Program-made: the position numbers and the translations under genes | Part shown: piece by piece, positions 36,876 through 46,922 of the stretch | How the letters are laid out: every line of letters starts with the position of its first letter | How positions within the stretch are numbered: position 1 is the stretch's first letter | Notes under the pieces: model-generated | What the model was told of the DNA's origin: nothing | Seen by the model: only the letters and a program-made list of their open reading frames with translations | Databases searched by the model: none | Source: SAR86 cluster bacterium | GTDB taxonomy: Bacteria; Pseudomonadota; Gammaproteobacteria; Magnimaribacterales; D2472 | Direction of reading: 5' to 3' | DNA length: 64,000 bases | Assembly (NCBI GenBank): GCA_023703615.1 | Contig: CP097971.1 | Span: 274,315-338,314 of the forward strand

Positions 36876-38478
36876 AATTAATTTTATAAATTGGAGACTT
36901 GTTCTCATTCTTTTATTTTTAATTTCTCTCATTTTTATTATTTTAGTAAAAATAATTTCTGTTCAAGTAAAGGATGGTTCATTTTTGCAAAGTGAGGGTG
37001 AAAAGCGTCAAATTACATTTAATAAAACTCTACCAACTAGGGGAGGAATATATGATAGAAATAGTTTTCCGTTAGCGATAACTGTTAAAAATTATGATTT
37101 ATATGCACTCAAAGGCTTTAGTGAAAACCAATTCGTAAAACTTTCTAATACAATCGAAATCGAATCCTATACAAATAGATCTTTTTCTAAAAAAACTCTA
37201 TTAGTTAAAGATTTAACACTCGCTGAAGTAAACGCAATTAAAAAACTTTCAATTAATAACATCGAGATTGAATCGAGACAGTCTCGGCATTATCCATTAG
37301 GACAGCAAATCTCACCACTTATAGGATTTTATGGCAAAGATGGTGCACTAGAAGGCTTAGAAAAGAGTTATGATCACATTCTTTCTGGAATGTCAGGAAA
37401 GCAAAAATTATATAGAAACGCAAAACAGGAAGTGATATCAAAACCCATTGTTATAAAAAAAACTATTCATGGTCAAAATATAGCTTTAACTATAGACGCA
37501 ACAATACAATTTTATGCCTATAAGCATTTGGTTGAAGCAGTAAAGAACAATAAAGCAAAAGCAGGAACTGCAATTATATTAGACAACTCAAAAGGCGAAG
37601 TTTTAGCAATGGTCAGCTATCCTTCGTACAATCCAAATAATCCTGCTAGAAAAGTTCAAAAAAATAGAGCATTAGTCGATTCTTATGAACTAGGGTCAGT
37701 TATGAAACCAATAGTTTTCTCGGGAATATTAGAAAATAATTTATTACAAGCAGATGAGATTATTGAGACACCTCAAAGAATCAAAATTGGTAAAAAAGTA
37801 ATCAGTGATACAAAGAATCATGAAAAACTTTCAATAAAAGAAATAATTGCTCATTCAAGTCAGGTTGGTGCAAGCAAGTTAGCAATTAGTCTAGGTTATG
37901 ATGAGCTAAAAAGAACTTATTTAAATTTTGGATTTACAAAACCAATTTCTCTTAATTTTCCCTCTTCAGCATTTGGCTTTATGAATTTCAGTGATGACAT
38001 TCCTCAGCATAGTTTAGCAAGCCTTGGATATGGTTATGGCATAAAAGTTAGTCCATACCAGTTAAGTACTGCGTATTCTGTTTTTGCAAATGATGGCATT
38101 TTAAAAGATTTTAAATTACTTTTATCTGATGAAATTTCTTCAAAAAGAATAATTTCAGACCAAACAGCAAACCAAACAATAGACGCATTAAAAGAGGTAA
38201 TAAAAATAGGTACAGGCAAAAAAGCATACATAAAAGGATATGAAGTGGCTGGCAAAACTGGAACAGCTCACAAGATCAGAAACGGTGACTATGCAGATGA
38301 CTTATATCAAGCATCGTTTGTTGGAATAACTCCGCTTAGTAAAAATTCTCTAACTATTTTTGTTTCTATAGATGAACCTGGATTAAACGCTTATTCTGGA
38401 GGAACTATAGCTGCACCTCTTTTTAAAGTCATCGCAGAGGACGTCTTAAATTACCTTGGATATATTGGAAATGAGTAA
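36868..38478 (+). CDS. ftsI: Septal peptidoglycan transpeptidase FtsI (PBP3)
   Basis: Class B penicillin-binding protein that cross-links septal peptidoglycan with FtsW. The 536 residues have a membrane anchor (about 10-30), the PTRGGIYDRN motif (56-65), and a transpeptidase domain from about 230. SxxK is S277-V-M-K280 and KTG is 463-465. The SxN motif reads S330-S331-Q332 instead of SSN, an odd change at a substrate-binding residue. It overlaps ftsL by eight bases and murE by eight. Confidence 0.95.
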   Translation: MNKINFINWRLVLILLFLISLIFIILVKIISVQVKDGSFLQSEGEKRQITFNKTLPTRGGIYDRNSFPLAITVKNYDLYALKGFSENQFVKLSNTIEIESYTNRSFSKKTLLVKDLTLAEVNAIKKLSINNIEIESRQSRHYPLGQQISPLIGFYGKDGALEGLEKSYDHILSGMSGKQKLYRNAKQEVISKPIVIKKTIHGQNIALTIDATIQFYAYKHLVEAVKNNKAKAGTAIILDNSKGEVLAMVSYPSYNPNNPARKVQKNRALVDSYELGSVMKPIVFSGILENNLLQADEIIETPQRIKIGKKVISDTKNHEKLSIKEIIAHSSQVGASKLAISLGYDELKRTYLNFGFTKPISLNFPSSAFGFMNFSDDIPQHSLASLGYGYGIKVSPYQLSTAYSVFANDGILKDFKLLLSDEISSKRIISDQTANQTIDALKEVIKIGTGKKAYIKGYEVAGKTGTAHKIRNGDYADDLYQASFVGITPLSKNSLTIFVSIDEPGLNAYSGGTIAAPLFKVIAEDVLNYLGYIGNE

Positions 38479-39937
38479 GTTAGAAAAAATTTTAAAAGTT
38501 TCTTTTCCAAATGGAACTAAAATTATAAATGCTACCAATTCTTCAAAAAAAATTAAAGAAAACACTTTATTTTTTGCATTGCAAGGACAAAAAATGCATG
38601 GAAGTGTATTTATTGAAGATGCAATAAATATGGGCGTATCAGCAGTTGTTCATAATAATTCAAAATTCAGATCAGATAGCCCATTAGTTTTTTTTATTCA
38701 AGATCTAGATAGTAAAATCATAGACATCCTTACTTGTTTGAACAAAATTGATATTAATAATAATAATTTTTTTGCTTTCACTGGAACAAATGGCAAAACT
38801 TCATCTGCTTATTTCTGTCATCAGATATTAAGATTTGGTGGATATGATTCACTTTATATAGGAACCCTAGGAATTCAGTATAATGAGAGCAAATTAGAAA
38901 AAAAATTTTCTGATAAAACAACACCTGACATATTTGAACTATTTGAAATTATTAAAAGTTTTAGTTTTAAGAATCCTGTAAATATATGTATTGAGATTTC
39001 ATCACATGCTTTAGATCAAAAAAGACTTCAAGGAATTAAATTTTTAAATTCAGCCGCAGTCTTAAATATCAAAAGTGATCATATTGATTATCATAAAAGT
39101 ATCGAGAAATATCGTGATGCCAAATTTGAAATTTTTAGAATGAATTCAGCATTAAAGCTTATCAACGAAAATTTAAGAGAATTTATAGATAGTTATGATC
39201 ATATTGTAAATAATCAATATAAGTTACTTTGTGTCAGTGAAAGGAATGAATTTTCTGATATTTTTTACAAAATAGAAAAAATATCTATTGATGAAACAAT
39301 TTTTGAAATTCATATAAATTCTTCTGGCCATTTTTATGGATTTTCTAATAAGAAAAAATACAAATTTATTTGCAAGATATTCCCAAGCTTTAATATTGAA
39401 AATCTAGTATTTGCTATTTGTTCAATTGGATTCGATTTATTTAAAGAATCTGAATTGAACGATTTATCATTTTTAGAAATGCCAAAAGGAAGGGCTGAGT
39501 TTATAAAAAATATTCCTACAAATATTATTATTGATTATGCTCATAATCATGAAGCAATTGAAATTTTTTTACACTCAATCAAAGACTATTACAAAAATCT
39601 AATAGTAATCCTTGGATGTGGTGGAGATAGAGATAAATCAAAAAGAGATAAGATGTTAAGGTCTGCAATAAAAAATTCTTCGAAAGTAATTTTTACGTCT
39701 GATAACTCAAGATCTGAGAACTTCAATGATATTTTTTCTCATGCATCTGAAAATAATGATGTAAAAAATGTGCATAAAATAAAAGACAGAAAAGAAGCAA
39801 TTAATTATGGCGTTACAATTCTATCAAAAGACGACTGTTTAGTAATTTTGGGCAAAGGGCATGAAGAAACTCAAGAAGAGAATGGAAAATTTATGTTTTT
39901 TAGTGATCATGAGGTAGTTAATGAAATTTATAAATAA
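38471..39937 (+). CDS. murE: UDP-MurNAc-tripeptide synthetase (meso-Dap adding)
   Basis: Adds the third amino acid to UDP-MurNAc-L-Ala-D-Glu. From ATG 38471 there are 488 residues (an upstream TTG at 38456 is less likely). ATP loop GTNGKT is at 105-110, EISSHALDQKR near 180-190, PSFNIENL in the middle domain, and GRAEF before the ligase C-domain. The meso-diaminopimelate signature DNPR appears as D411-N-S-R414: the Dap-contacting Arg is kept but Pro is Ser. It overlaps ftsI and murF. Confidence 0.93.
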   Translation: MSKLEKILKVSFPNGTKIINATNSSKKIKENTLFFALQGQKMHGSVFIEDAINMGVSAVVHNNSKFRSDSPLVFFIQDLDSKIIDILTCLNKIDINNNNFFAFTGTNGKTSSAYFCHQILRFGGYDSLYIGTLGIQYNESKLEKKFSDKTTPDIFELFEIIKSFSFKNPVNICIEISSHALDQKRLQGIKFLNSAAVLNIKSDHIDYHKSIEKYRDAKFEIFRMNSALKLINENLREFIDSYDHIVNNQYKLLCVSERNEFSDIFYKIEKISIDETIFEIHINSSGHFYGFSNKKKYKFICKIFPSFNIENLVFAICSIGFDLFKESELNDLSFLEMPKGRAEFIKNIPTNIIIDYAHNHEAIEIFLHSIKDYYKNLIVILGCGGDRDKSKRDKMLRSAIKNSSKVIFTSDNSRSENFNDIFSHASENNDVKNVHKIKDRKEAINYGVTILSKDDCLVILGKGHEETQEENGKFMFFSDHEVVNEIYK

Positions 39938-42331: not shown

Positions 42332-43360
42332 GTGCAAAAAAAATCTTTAATTTATGGTTATGGTAAAACTGGCAAGTCTTTTGAAACCTACCTTAAAAGA
42401 AAAAAAATAGAATTTGAAATTATCTCAGATGGTTTTCCAAAAATTGATAATGAATATGAAAATATATATTGTAGTCCAGGAATTCCAAGAGAAAATTATT
42501 TAAAGCTAAAAAAGAAATTTTCAGTTTTTACAGATATTGATATTTTTTTTAAGGAAGATTCATCTATTAAAATTGGGATAACTGGAACTAACAGAAAAAG
42601 TACAACTTGCTATCATCTCTATCAGCTTCTCAAAAAGGATTTTTCTGTAAATTTAATTGGAAATATTGGCAACCCAGTTCTTGACAGCATAAACAACGGA
42701 AAAAAATTTTCTATAATTGAACTTTCAAGTTTTCAATTAGATAAGGTATCTAAAATTGAATTAGATTATGGAGTACTTCTCAATATAGAGCCTGACCATC
42801 TTGATTATCATAATAGTTTTAGTAAATATAAAAAAACAAAACTTCGGATATTAGAAGCAAAAGAAACTTCAACAAAATCAGATCCTTATGAATTATATAA
42901 TTGGATAGTTGGAAAAAAAATTAAAAAACAAGCTCTCAAAAATTTAAGCTTTAGATTTCAAAAAATTTCAAAAAATTTAATCAATGATTCAAAGTCTACA
43001 AACTCACATTCATTAAAATATGCAATTCTAAAAGCAGCTAAATATTTTGGAACAAATGAATATAATTTAATTTTGTGTGGAGATCCTTCAAAAGAAAATA
43101 TAAAAAAACTAGAACTTATTAAACCTATGAATATTTATATTTATGGATCTTATGCTCAACAAATAAATAGGTGTATATTGCATGAAAATAAAATCTTATG
43201 TTCTTCGCTCAAAGAATGCTTGAACTCAATTAAAACCAAAAGAAATACAAATAAAATTTTGTTTTCTCCAGGTTTTCCAAGTGGAGAAGATTATAAAAAT
43301 TTTGAAGATCGGGGAAAATATTTCAATAAAATCTATAAAAGTGTATTTAATGACAAATAA
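42332..43360 (+). CDS. murD: UDP-MurNAc-L-Ala:D-Glu ligase (shortened, atypical P-loop)
   Basis: Adds D-Glu to UDP-MurNAc-L-Ala. It begins with GTG and has 342 residues, about 95 fewer than E. coli. Conserved parts in order are a Rossmann-like N-domain, ATP loop GTNRKSTT (85-92) with Arg88 in place of the usual Gly, LSSFQLD (131-137), NIEPDHLDYH (151-160), the carbamylation Lys in KTKLRI (about 170), INDSKSTN (217-224) and SPGFPSGEDYKNFEDRG (312-328). Between 173 and 217 some 70 residues of the usual middle domain are missing, including the GQHN..N region. One frame spans it all, so no frameshift. Identity is firm; activity is uncertain. Confidence 0.9.
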   Translation: MQKKSLIYGYGKTGKSFETYLKRKKIEFEIISDGFPKIDNEYENIYCSPGIPRENYLKLKKKFSVFTDIDIFFKEDSSIKIGITGTNRKSTTCYHLYQLLKKDFSVNLIGNIGNPVLDSINNGKKFSIIELSSFQLDKVSKIELDYGVLLNIEPDHLDYHNSFSKYKKTKLRILEAKETSTKSDPYELYNWIVGKKIKKQALKNLSFRFQKISKNLINDSKSTNSHSLKYAILKAAKYFGTNEYNLILCGDPSKENIKKLELIKPMNIYIYGSYAQQINRCILHENKILCSSLKECLNSIKTKRNTNKILFSPGFPSGEDYKNFEDRGKYFNKIYKSVFNDK

Positions 43361-44459
43361 TAATTTTTTAATAGTTTCATCTTTTATAGGTTTGCTTTCT
43401 TTAGGTCTAGTGATGGTAACTTCTTCGAGCATATACGTTGCCGATGAAATGACAGGAAATCCATTTTATTTTGCATCCAGACAATTATTATTTATATCAA
43501 TAGGAATACTAACAATGGTCATATTTTTGATAACGCCCACTGAGTTTTTATATAAATTTGATTGGATTTTTATGCTGATAAGTATTTTATTACTACTAGC
43601 ATTATTTATTCCTGAAGTCGGCACTTCAGTTAATGGCAGTATAAGATGGATAAGATTAGGTTCTATTAATATACAACCATCTGAAATATGTAAATTTAGC
43701 TTGATGTTATACATTTCTGGTTATTGTTTTAGAAGACTTTCTGAAATTAATACATTACGAAGTTTTTTAAAACCATTGTTTTTATTGAGCATTATTTCGC
43801 TATTAATAATGGGCCAGCCTGATCTTGGAACTACTGCCATAATTTGTCTTTTTGTTGTAACAATTCTCTTTTATGCAGGAATATCCTTCTTTCAATTTTG
43901 TTTACTACTAATTTTGTTAGGTTTGTTAGGTTTTATTGCAATCTCTCAGTCTCCTATGAGGATTGCTAGAGTGATGGCTTTTCAGGATCCATTTGCAGCT
44001 GATGTTGTACAAAATAGTGGTTGGCAGCTCTCAAACTCTCTAATAAGTATTGGACAAGGCGGTTGGTTTGGATTGGGTTTAGGTAATAGTTTTCAAAAGA
44101 ATTTTTTCCTTCCAGAAGCACACACAGATTTTATTTTTGCAATTATGATTGAAGAACTTGGCATTATTGGAGGTATATTAATGATAGGAATGTTTCTTAT
44201 CTTATTTTTTGGTATTTTAAAGGTTTCTATGGATTCATTTAAAAAAAATAGAATATTTCAAGGATTCGTTGCTTTTGGAACATTAATTTTGATATCAGTT
44301 CAATGTTTATTTCATATCTCAGTAAATATTGGTTTGCTTCCAACAAAAGGATTAACTCTTCCATTTATAAGTTATGGAGGCACAAGCATGATAATTATGA
44401 TGTCATTAATAGCAATAATTTTGAGAATTAATTTTGAAAATAAATCATTAAAAAAATAA
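43350..44459 (+). CDS. ftsW: Septal peptidoglycan glycosyltransferase FtsW
   Basis: SEDS-family polymerase that builds septal glycan strands with FtsI. From ATG 43350, which overlaps the murD end by 11 bases, there are 369 residues with about ten membrane helices. Family motifs include GSIRWIRLGSINIQPSEICK in the large periplasmic region, MGQPDLGTT, SGWQLSNSLISIGQGGWFGLGLGNS, LPEAHTDFIFAIMIEELG with the catalytic Asp, and LPFISYGGTSM. A start further upstream (43281) would lie inside murD. Confidence 0.95.
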   Translation: MTNNNFLIVSSFIGLLSLGLVMVTSSSIYVADEMTGNPFYFASRQLLFISIGILTMVIFLITPTEFLYKFDWIFMLISILLLLALFIPEVGTSVNGSIRWIRLGSINIQPSEICKFSLMLYISGYCFRRLSEINTLRSFLKPLFLLSIISLLIMGQPDLGTTAIICLFVVTILFYAGISFFQFCLLLILLGLLGFIAISQSPMRIARVMAFQDPFAADVVQNSGWQLSNSLISIGQGGWFGLGLGNSFQKNFFLPEAHTDFIFAIMIEELGIIGGILMIGMFLILFFGILKVSMDSFKKNRIFQGFVAFGTLILISVQCLFHISVNIGLLPTKGLTLPFISYGGTSMIIMMSLIAIILRINFENKSLKK

Positions 44460-44479
44460 TGAATATATAATAATGGATT

Positions 44480-45550
44480 ATGAAAAATATTTTAGTTGCT
44501 GCAGCAAAAACTGGTGGTCATATTTATCCAGCAATCGCAGTAGCTAATGAGTTTCTAGAAAATAATCATAAAGTATACTTCTTCGGATCTGGTGCTGAGC
44601 TTGAAAAAAAAGCGGTTAGTAACTTAAATTTAAAATATTTTTCAATACATATGGTTGGTTTTAGAGGAAATTCTTTTTTAAATAAAATATTAATTATTCT
44701 AAAACTTCCATTTCAGATCATTAAGTGCGCATATATCATTTATATAAATAAAATTGAAACCATTATTGGCTTTGGGGGATTTATTACTATACCAATATGC
44801 ACAGCTGGATTTATTATGGGTAAATCTATATATGTTCATGAACAAAATTCTGTTGTTGGTTCTGCAAATAGATTTATTTCAAAATTTGCAAAGAAAGTCT
44901 TTCTAGGTATGAGCTTAAACAAAGACATTAAAAATTCATTGCTTATTGGAAACCCATTAAGAAAGTCATTCAAGGCAATAAAAACTAATAGACCAATAGA
45001 TCTTAAAAAAATAAATATTTATATCACTGGCGGCAGCCAAGGTTCTTATTATTTAAATCAAACTTTATTAATACACCTTTTAGCAATAACACCTTTAATA
45101 CAAAAAAATTTTTTCATTAAACATCAGTGTGGAAGTGGTAATTTTGAAAAAGTAAATAAATTTTACTCAAATACATCCTCATCAGACTTGAATTTAAACT
45201 ACACAGTAAAAGAATTTTTTGAATCGCCAGAGGAGTGTATTGCCTGGGCTGATTTAATTATTTCAAGAGCTGGAGCATTAACATTATCTGAAATATCCGC
45301 TATGGAAAAGGGCGCCTTTATGATTCCATTACCAAGTTCTATTGATAATCATCAATATTTAAATGCTAAAAATCATGAAAAAATTGGACTTGGAATAACT
45401 CATGAAGAATCTGACTCTAGTGAAAATTTAATGAAAAAGTTAAGCGATGTTATTGAGAAACATCGTTATCTTGATTGGGAAAATGTAAAAAAAGACATAC
45501 TACATATCAAAGCTGCAATTAATATATATGAATTTATTAAAAAAAATTAA
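44480..45550 (+). CDS. murG: Lipid II synthase MurG
   Basis: Membrane-associated glycosyltransferase that adds GlcNAc to lipid I to make lipid II. The 356 residues show two Rossmann domains. The first glycine loop reads AAKTGGHIYPAIAVA (8-22), keeping TGGH but lacking the first two glycines of the usual GGTGGH. Later motifs are HEQNSVVGSANR (about 117-128), ITGGSQGS (about 181-188) and ISRAGALTLSEISA with PLPSSIDNHQYLNA. It overlaps murC by 23 bases. Confidence 0.94.
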   Translation: MKNILVAAAKTGGHIYPAIAVANEFLENNHKVYFFGSGAELEKKAVSNLNLKYFSIHMVGFRGNSFLNKILIILKLPFQIIKCAYIIYINKIETIIGFGGFITIPICTAGFIMGKSIYVHEQNSVVGSANRFISKFAKKVFLGMSLNKDIKNSLLIGNPLRKSFKAIKTNRPIDLKKINIYITGGSQGSYYLNQTLLIHLLAITPLIQKNFFIKHQCGSGNFEKVNKFYSNTSSSDLNLNYTVKEFFESPEECIAWADLIISRAGALTLSEISAMEKGAFMIPLPSSIDNHQYLNAKNHEKIGLGITHEESDSSENLMKKLSDVIEKHRYLDWENVKKDILHIKAAINIYEFIKKN

Positions 45551-46922
45551 ACATATTCATTTTGTAGGAATCGGTGGTGCTGGAATGATAGGTATCGCTA
45601 GAATACTTTTGAAAAAAGGCTTTAAAATATCAGGCTCTGACATTGCACATAATAATGATTTAAGAAAACTTTCTTTAAGAGGCGCAAAGATATTTATTGG
45701 ACATGACGAAAAAAATGTTAATGGCGCAAATCTTCTTGTTGTATCTTCAGCAATAAATAATAAGAATGTTGAAGTTGTAAATGCAAAAAAAAACAATATA
45801 ACTATTATTCCAAGAGCACAGATGCTTGGTAGTATGATGAAAGGTTATGACAGCATTGCTATTGCAGGCAGCCATGGCAAAACTACGACAACAAGCATGT
45901 TAGCTAAGATATTTAGTTCGGCAAATTTAAGTCCTACTTATGTTATTGGAGGCAAAGTACTCAGCACTGACAATAATTCTGATCTTGGAGATGGTAGTTA
46001 TTTAATTGCAGAAGCAGACGAAAGTGATGGATCATTTATTCATCTTCAACCAGATGTGGCTGTTATTACAAATATAGATGATGACCACTTGGTACATTAT
46101 AATAATAATTTTGAGGAATTAATTGATTCTTTTATTAATTTTGCTTTAAACATACCTTTTTATGGATACATAGTATTAAATGCAGACGATAAAAATATTC
46201 AAAAAGTTGCAAAAAAAATATACAGAAAACAAATAACATTTGGTAAGTCTTATAGTTCTGATTATCAAATTATCAAAGCTAAATACCAAAATGGATTTAA
46301 TAAATTTAGTCTAAAACTAAAGTCTACAAAAAAAGCTTATAACTTCGAAATTAAGTTGCCTGGAGACCATAATATTTATAATGCTGTTGGCGCGATAGTT
46401 ACATCGATAGAGGAAGGAATAAAAATAAAAGATATAAAAAAGGGGATTAAAGAATTCACAGGAGTTGGCAGAAGATATCAAAAACATAATATAAAAATAA
46501 ATAAACAAAAAAAATTATTAATAGATGATTATGGCCATCATCCAATTGAAATTGATTCAAATATAAATGCAATCAAAGAAGAATACCCAAAATCAAAAAT
46601 TTGTATGATCTTTCAACCTCATAGATTTTCAAGAACAGCTCAGCTTTTTGATGATTTTATAAGAGTTCTTAAAAAAGTAGATTACATTTATTTGTTAGAT
46701 ATTTATTCAGCTAGTGAAAAATCAATTAAAGGAATACATAGCAGGACTATTTATGAAACATTGAAGCAGTCTGGACAAAACAATACATCATATGTCAAAG
46801 ATTATCATGATTTGATGCCACTATTGGAAGAAAAAGCAATTACTAACGACATCTTTGTAACACAAGGTGCAGGAAGCATATCTGAAGTATGCAATCTTAT
46901 TAGAGATAAATGGAAAGCATAA
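45528..46922 (+). CDS. murC: UDP-MurNAc:L-alanine ligase
   Basis: Attaches L-Ala to UDP-MurNAc. The 464 residues have the UDP-binding HFVGIGGAGMIGIA (11-24), SGSD, ATP loop GSHGKTTTTSML (about 111-122), EADESDGSFIHL, NIDDDHLVHY, PGDHNIYNAVGAI in the middle domain and DDYGHHPIEI in the C-domain. All expected catalytic motifs are intact. It overlaps both murG and ddl, so translation is tightly coupled. Confidence 0.96.
   Translation: MNLLKKIKHIHFVGIGGAGMIGIARILLKKGFKISGSDIAHNNDLRKLSLRGAKIFIGHDEKNVNGANLLVVSSAINNKNVEVVNAKKNNITIIPRAQMLGSMMKGYDSIAIAGSHGKTTTTSMLAKIFSSANLSPTYVIGGKVLSTDNNSDLGDGSYLIAEADESDGSFIHLQPDVAVITNIDDDHLVHYNNNFEELIDSFINFALNIPFYGYIVLNADDKNIQKVAKKIYRKQITFGKSYSSDYQIIKAKYQNGFNKFSLKLKSTKKAYNFEIKLPGDHNIYNAVGAIVTSIEEGIKIKDIKKGIKEFTGVGRRYQKHNIKINKQKKLLIDDYGHHPIEIDSNINAIKEEYPKSKICMIFQPHRFSRTAQLFDDFIRVLKKVDYIYLLDIYSASEKSIKGIHSRTIYETLKQSGQNNTSYVKDYHDLMPLLEEKAITNDIFVTQGAGSISEVCNLIRDKWKA

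Follow-up and report, generated by a model that had tools for sequence, protein, structure and literature searches.

A 64,000-nucleotide stretch of DNA from a SAR86 cluster bacterium (hereafter the window; positions 274315-338314 of one 1.23 Mb contig, CP097971.1, assembly GCA_023703615.1) encodes a MurD ligase that is very probably a working, minimal enzyme, in which the adenine-recognition module was lost once and the nucleotide site was rebuilt; its activity is predicted. Its descent, genomic position and predicted fold make the protein a MurD, but it lacks two of the sequence hallmarks and scores below the curated cut-off. Mur ligases are essential enzymes and drug targets, and both the GxHNxxN motif and the glycine of the phosphate-binding loop (P-loop) are regarded as constant features of their adenosine triphosphate (ATP) site. 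SAR86 is among the most abundant bacterial groups of the ocean. In the open-access literature, no report of a short MurD variant was found.

The middle-domain deletion and the predicted structure

The open reading frame runs in a single frame from a GTG start at 42332 to a TAA stop at 43360 on the forward strand. It is continuous over 342 amino acids, so that the N- and C-terminal motifs do lie in one frame, as the original prediction had it. The product is 96 residues shorter than E. coli MurD (438 amino acids), whose residues are numbered here as in the literature. The elements of the gene, with residue equivalents taken from alignments, are as follows.

42332..43360, + strand: short form of murD; the GTG lies one base past the mraY stop, TIGR01087 is the best NCBIfam model, and it is the sole MurD of the genome
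42581..42604, + strand: P-loop TGTNRKST, residues 84-91; the position of R88 is Gly in the neighbouring MurC, MurE and MurF and in the longer SAR86 MurDs
42719..42721, + strand: E130, equivalent of E. coli E157, invariant
42797..42799, + strand: H156 in PDHLD, equivalent of E. coli H183
42839..42841, + strand: K170, equivalent of the carbamylated K198
42842..42979, + strand: shortened middle-domain remnant, residues 171-216, about 70 residues fewer than in E. coli, GQHNYTN gone
42953..42955, + strand: R208, equivalent of R302
42980..43003, + strand: INDSKSTN, residues 217-224, equivalent of the D317 motif
43076..43096, + strand: CGDPSKE, residues 249-255, holding the column of E. coli K348
43265..43303, + strand: SPGFPSGEDYKNF, residues 312-324, with the S415 equivalent kept

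The large deletion that had been proposed between the carbamylated Lys and INDSKSTN is present, since the distance from K170 to I217 is 47 residues versus 117 in E. coli. The aligned middle-domain stretch comprises 50 residues, compared with 120 in E. coli, a loss of about 70. We searched 60 relatives, whose families are labelled f1 (that of the window genome), f2, f3 and f4, and aligned 40 intact short and 16 longer SAR86 MurDs; a few of the short ones are near-duplicates. The GQHN..N region, also predicted to be removed, is indeed missing: the GQHNYTN columns checked are empty in the window MurD and in all 40 short forms. The N-terminal domain has also been shortened, with 66 residues where E. 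coli has residues 1-93, and the C-terminal domain has kept almost its whole length (140 residues in E. coli, 136 in the window MurD). In Mpl and MurC, adenine binding was assigned to a further Asn as well as to the His and Asn of HNxxN (PMC3060825). The likely equivalent of this further Asn in the window MurD is N151, which is invariant in one alignment. MurD mutagenesis studies are reported to count N268 and N271 among the residues that all Mur ligases share.

Structure modelling, proposed earlier as a check, yielded a confident three-domain MurD fold. The AlphaFold2 model, made with 18 sequences, has a mean predicted local distance difference test score (pLDDT) of 91.8 and a predicted template modelling score (pTM) of 0.86, and its middle domain has no low-confidence segment. 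The region after the carbamylated Lys consists only of a short strand, 178-180, and a helix, 185-193. With VIA-align, 337 of the 342 residues were placed on the crystal structure of Acinetobacter MurD (7ti7) at 2.4 Å with a Z score of 33.8, and comparison with E. coli MurD gave a Z of about 32-33. The window MurD shares with the E. coli enzyme (PDB 2jfg, 5a5f, 8vw0) the three-domain fold, the P-loop Lys, the equivalents of E157, H183, K198, R302, D317 and S415, and the position in the division and cell wall (dcw) cluster. It differs in its length, in the missing GQHNYTN module and in the replacement of the P-loop Gly by Arg. Sequence matching leads to the same family: the short MurD matches TIGR01087 (murD) with an E value of 8e-55, the next model being MurE at 7.6e-17, and MurD stands at the top of its PDB sequence matches. 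The Mpl model TIGR01081 was not among the NCBIfam matches of the window short MurD, and Mpl is a separate gene.

Active-site residues, the P-loop and the remodelled loops

The P-loop Lys and the equivalents of E157, H183, K198, R302, D317 and S415 are invariant in the alignments. D155, which lies just before H156, corresponds to E. coli D182. Residue 32 of the window MurD is Ser; at this position, that of E. coli D35, 39 of the 40 short MurDs have Asp.

The P-loop reads T84-G-T-N-R88-K-S-T91, and R88 is encoded by AGA at 42593-42595, confirming the Arg codon noted at the outset. Alignment of the relatives bore out the deletion in all 40 short MurDs; R88 is not constant: 19 of them have Arg at this position, 15 have Gly, 5 have Lys and 1 has Ala. 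Gly is therefore absent from 25 of the 40, while it is present in 16 of 16 longer SAR86 MurDs. Across the short MurDs the Arg is encoded by AGA, AGG or CGA, and this use of synonymous codons indicates that it is the amino acid that is conserved. A DNA pattern for GTN-Arg-Lys occurs in 8 of 275 Gammaproteobacteria, of which the six outside SAR86 have AGC (Ser) at the codon.

Two loops of the short clade are remodelled. In GDPxKE, the conserved Lys sits one place after the K348 column, and the window MurD has Ser in that column. The loop SPG.PSG replaces SPACASL, with A414 changed to Pro in 39 of 40 short MurDs and L416 changed to Gly in most. Because K348, A414 and L416 are placed near D-glutamate (D-Glu) in E. 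coli MurD (PMC8788868), both loops probably line the active site.

In the mechanism that we propose, the short MurD would make an acyl-phosphate on UDP-N-acetylmuramoyl-L-alanine (UDP-MurNAc-L-Ala) from the gamma-phosphate of the nucleotide and would then add D-Glu. The nucleotide would be held mainly via its phosphates and ribose. The additional cation of the P-loop (R88, or Lys in genus g6) may partly offset the lost adenine contacts, and the loops GDPxKE and SPG.PSG may do likewise.

Several points weigh against a working enzyme. The window MurD scores 186.6 bits, below the TIGR01087 cut-off of 211.95, which is exceeded by 251 of 275 Gammaproteobacteria. The His and Asn of HNxxN are lost. 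The K348 column, in which each of the 16 longer SAR86 MurDs has Lys, varies within the short clade, and the remaining Mur ligases encoded in SAR86 genomes retain the P-loop Gly. Furthermore, the confidence of the AlphaFold2 model is no proof of catalysis. The short MurD of another genome, G008, reaches 220.4 bits and lies above the same cut-off.

Distribution, history and selection

Most genera of f1 carry the short MurD, as does another family, f4, and all 40 intact copies retain the other motifs. Longer frames of 403-449 amino acids occur in genera g7 and g10 of f1 and in families f2 and f3. These belong to the same bacterial order and have the same gene order and an eroded GxHNxxN motif (f2 retains HxxxN, most others do not), but they differ from the short form in their length, in a P-loop residue that is always Gly and in the Lys of the K348 column. 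In a scan of the best matches among 299 Pseudomonadota genomes, including that of the window, the 298 others gave no end-to-end match to a short-form model among the matches listed, and rare cases may be missed by such a scan.

Full-length relatives carrying GTNGK had been named as a sign of an assembly error or a strain-specific loss. The longer forms with GTNGK are confined to other families and to g7 and g10, and the near relatives share the deletion. Apart from the unusual sequence itself, nothing speaks for an assembly or sequencing artefact or a loss in one strain, and such an origin, to which we assign virtually no probability, is refuted by the recurrence of the deletion, mostly with the same P-loop residue, in independent metagenome-assembled genomes and single-cell genomes.

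In the MurD tree, the short MurDs form one clade (ultrafast bootstrap 100) on a long stem branch of 1.39. A tree of eight neighbouring genes, made with FastTree, groups g7 and g10 with g9, a genus with short MurD. The approximately unbiased test rejected a MurD tree forced into this shape (p 0.0003) and did not reject one with f4 placed outside f1 (p 0.27). From these tests, the deletion was probably a single event, and g7 and g10 would have kept or regained the longer gene. The longer MurDs of g7 and g10 (L072-L076) branch apart from the short clade; the tree of neighbouring genes disagrees with this, a hint that the gene was either replaced or retained. On the MurD tree, in which several inner nodes are weak, the change from Gly to Arg in the P-loop fits one event at the base of a nested clade, and later changes from Arg to Lys (g6) and from Arg to Gly (g3) would fit as well. 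Outside the SAR86 order, two genomes of the gammaproteobacterial family f123 (L116 and L117, about 1 Mb) have MurD frames of 374 and 411 amino acids with part of GxHNxxN left, apparently an independent case of shortening.

The ratio of nonsynonymous to synonymous substitution rates (dN/dS), with saturated-dS pairs excluded, is 0.07-0.18 for close pairs of short MurDs and 0.11-0.19 for longer MurDs; for the same pairs of genomes, the values of murE, murF and murG lie in the range of the short murD. Function of the short MurD is strongly implied by this selection. The original prediction had left a choice between a minimal, lineage-specific MurD and a decaying gene whose step is covered by another ligase. 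Decay, with Mpl, MurE or an unseen enzyme adding D-Glu, would agree with the disappearance of a motif that other Mur ligases conserve, the changed P-loop, the score below the MurD cut-off, the presence of Mpl in the genome and the stop codons in the copy from G035, a genome that is 59% complete. The selection data are strongly contrary to it, the frames are intact in 40 short MurDs, no second MurD was found in the window genome or was evident in the 12 SAR86 genomes checked, and Mpl acts in recycling only; we consider decay very improbable. The minimal MurD, the first of the two options, is supported by dozens of SAR86 genomes, purifying selection, the confident predicted fold and its standing as the only MurD.

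Neighbouring ligases, the source of D-Glu and loss of the module in MurF

The gene lies in a dcw cluster with the usual order, ftsI-murE-murF-mraY-murD-ftsW-murG-murC-ddl, which is the same in relatives, and the order mraY-murD-ftsW is kept at all SAR86 loci examined. The neighbouring genes that bear on the comparison are listed below; sequence comparison agrees with the earlier statement that MurC, MurE and MurF have normal P-loops.

38456..39937, + strand: murE, with a normal P-loop
39921..41252, + strand: murF, with GKHNVRN, a full middle domain and an ordinary P-loop
41245..42330, + strand: mraY, adjoining murD upstream
43350..44459, + strand: ftsW, whose likely ATG start at 43350 overlaps the end of murD
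45528..46922, + strand: murC, with a normal P-loop and GDHNIYN

The Mur ligases of the window genome are MurC, MurD, MurE, MurF and Mpl only. The fifth was considered as FolC and this was rejected, as it is Mpl. A second MurD, sought as a possible backup, was found neither in the window genome nor, as far as evident, in 12 SAR86 genomes checked. Mpl belongs to the recycling pathway, where it attaches only the recovered tripeptide (PMC3060825), and so it is no replacement for de novo addition of D-Glu.

A change in chemistry has also to be weighed, either the use of any nucleoside triphosphate or an L-Glu ligase of the MurD2 type acting with a MurL-like epimerase. The loss of the adenine motif and the remodelled active-site loops would suit it. 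So would the searches that found no MurI in the window genome and no Asp/Glu racemase above cut-off in nine SAR86 genomes (G000 and eight others). A weak racemase match at G000 C1:689860 was rejected as MurI, because its frame reads like PanB. Xanthomonas MurD2, an L-Glu ligase, is likewise a MurD relative from a lineage without MurI and has Pro at the A414 position. Asp at D182 marks the D-Glu type of MurD, however, and MurD2 has Glu there (PMC8788868). All 40 short MurDs have Asp at this position, and the K348 column of the window MurD holds Ser, versus Arg in MurD2; the MurD2 type was thus rejected for the short MurD. Furthermore, D-Glu could be supplied by a candidate Dat-like class IV aminotransferase (a 277 amino acid frame, G000 C1:125675-126397), which scores below its family cut-off. 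Most of the f1, f2 and f3 genomes that were checked encode such an enzyme, again below cut-off, and f4 gave one IlvE-sized match only. Overall, changed chemistry seems unlikely.

MurF has been shortened in some SAR86 genomes as well. Frames without GxHNxxN have 385-391 amino acids in f4 (L059, L061, L062, L110, L111) and 415-423 in f3 (L065, L070), and the distance from the P-loop to the D-motif is 162 or 191-198 residues, compared with about 223. These proteins have lost the same middle-domain region as the short MurD, but they add D-Ala-D-Ala and keep the P-loop Gly. The loss in MurF is a separate event in a paralogous ligase, independent of that in MurD. That a second essential Mur ligase has lost the same module argues that the module is dispensable. 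A wider proposal, which we regard as doubtful, is that SAR86 Mur ligases shed the adenine module (MurD once, MurF separately), hold the nucleotide mainly by its phosphates, replace the binding energy with the P-loop Arg or Lys and accept nucleotides other than ATP.

An abundant marine lineage thus apparently manages with a MurD that has neither GxHNxxN nor the P-loop Gly, and in other SAR86 families MurF has lost the motif too. In streamlined genomes, an essential gene can go undetected when annotation relies on fixed cut-offs. The short MurD suggests that the ATP site of Mur ligases can be pared down, and it marks a minimal core.
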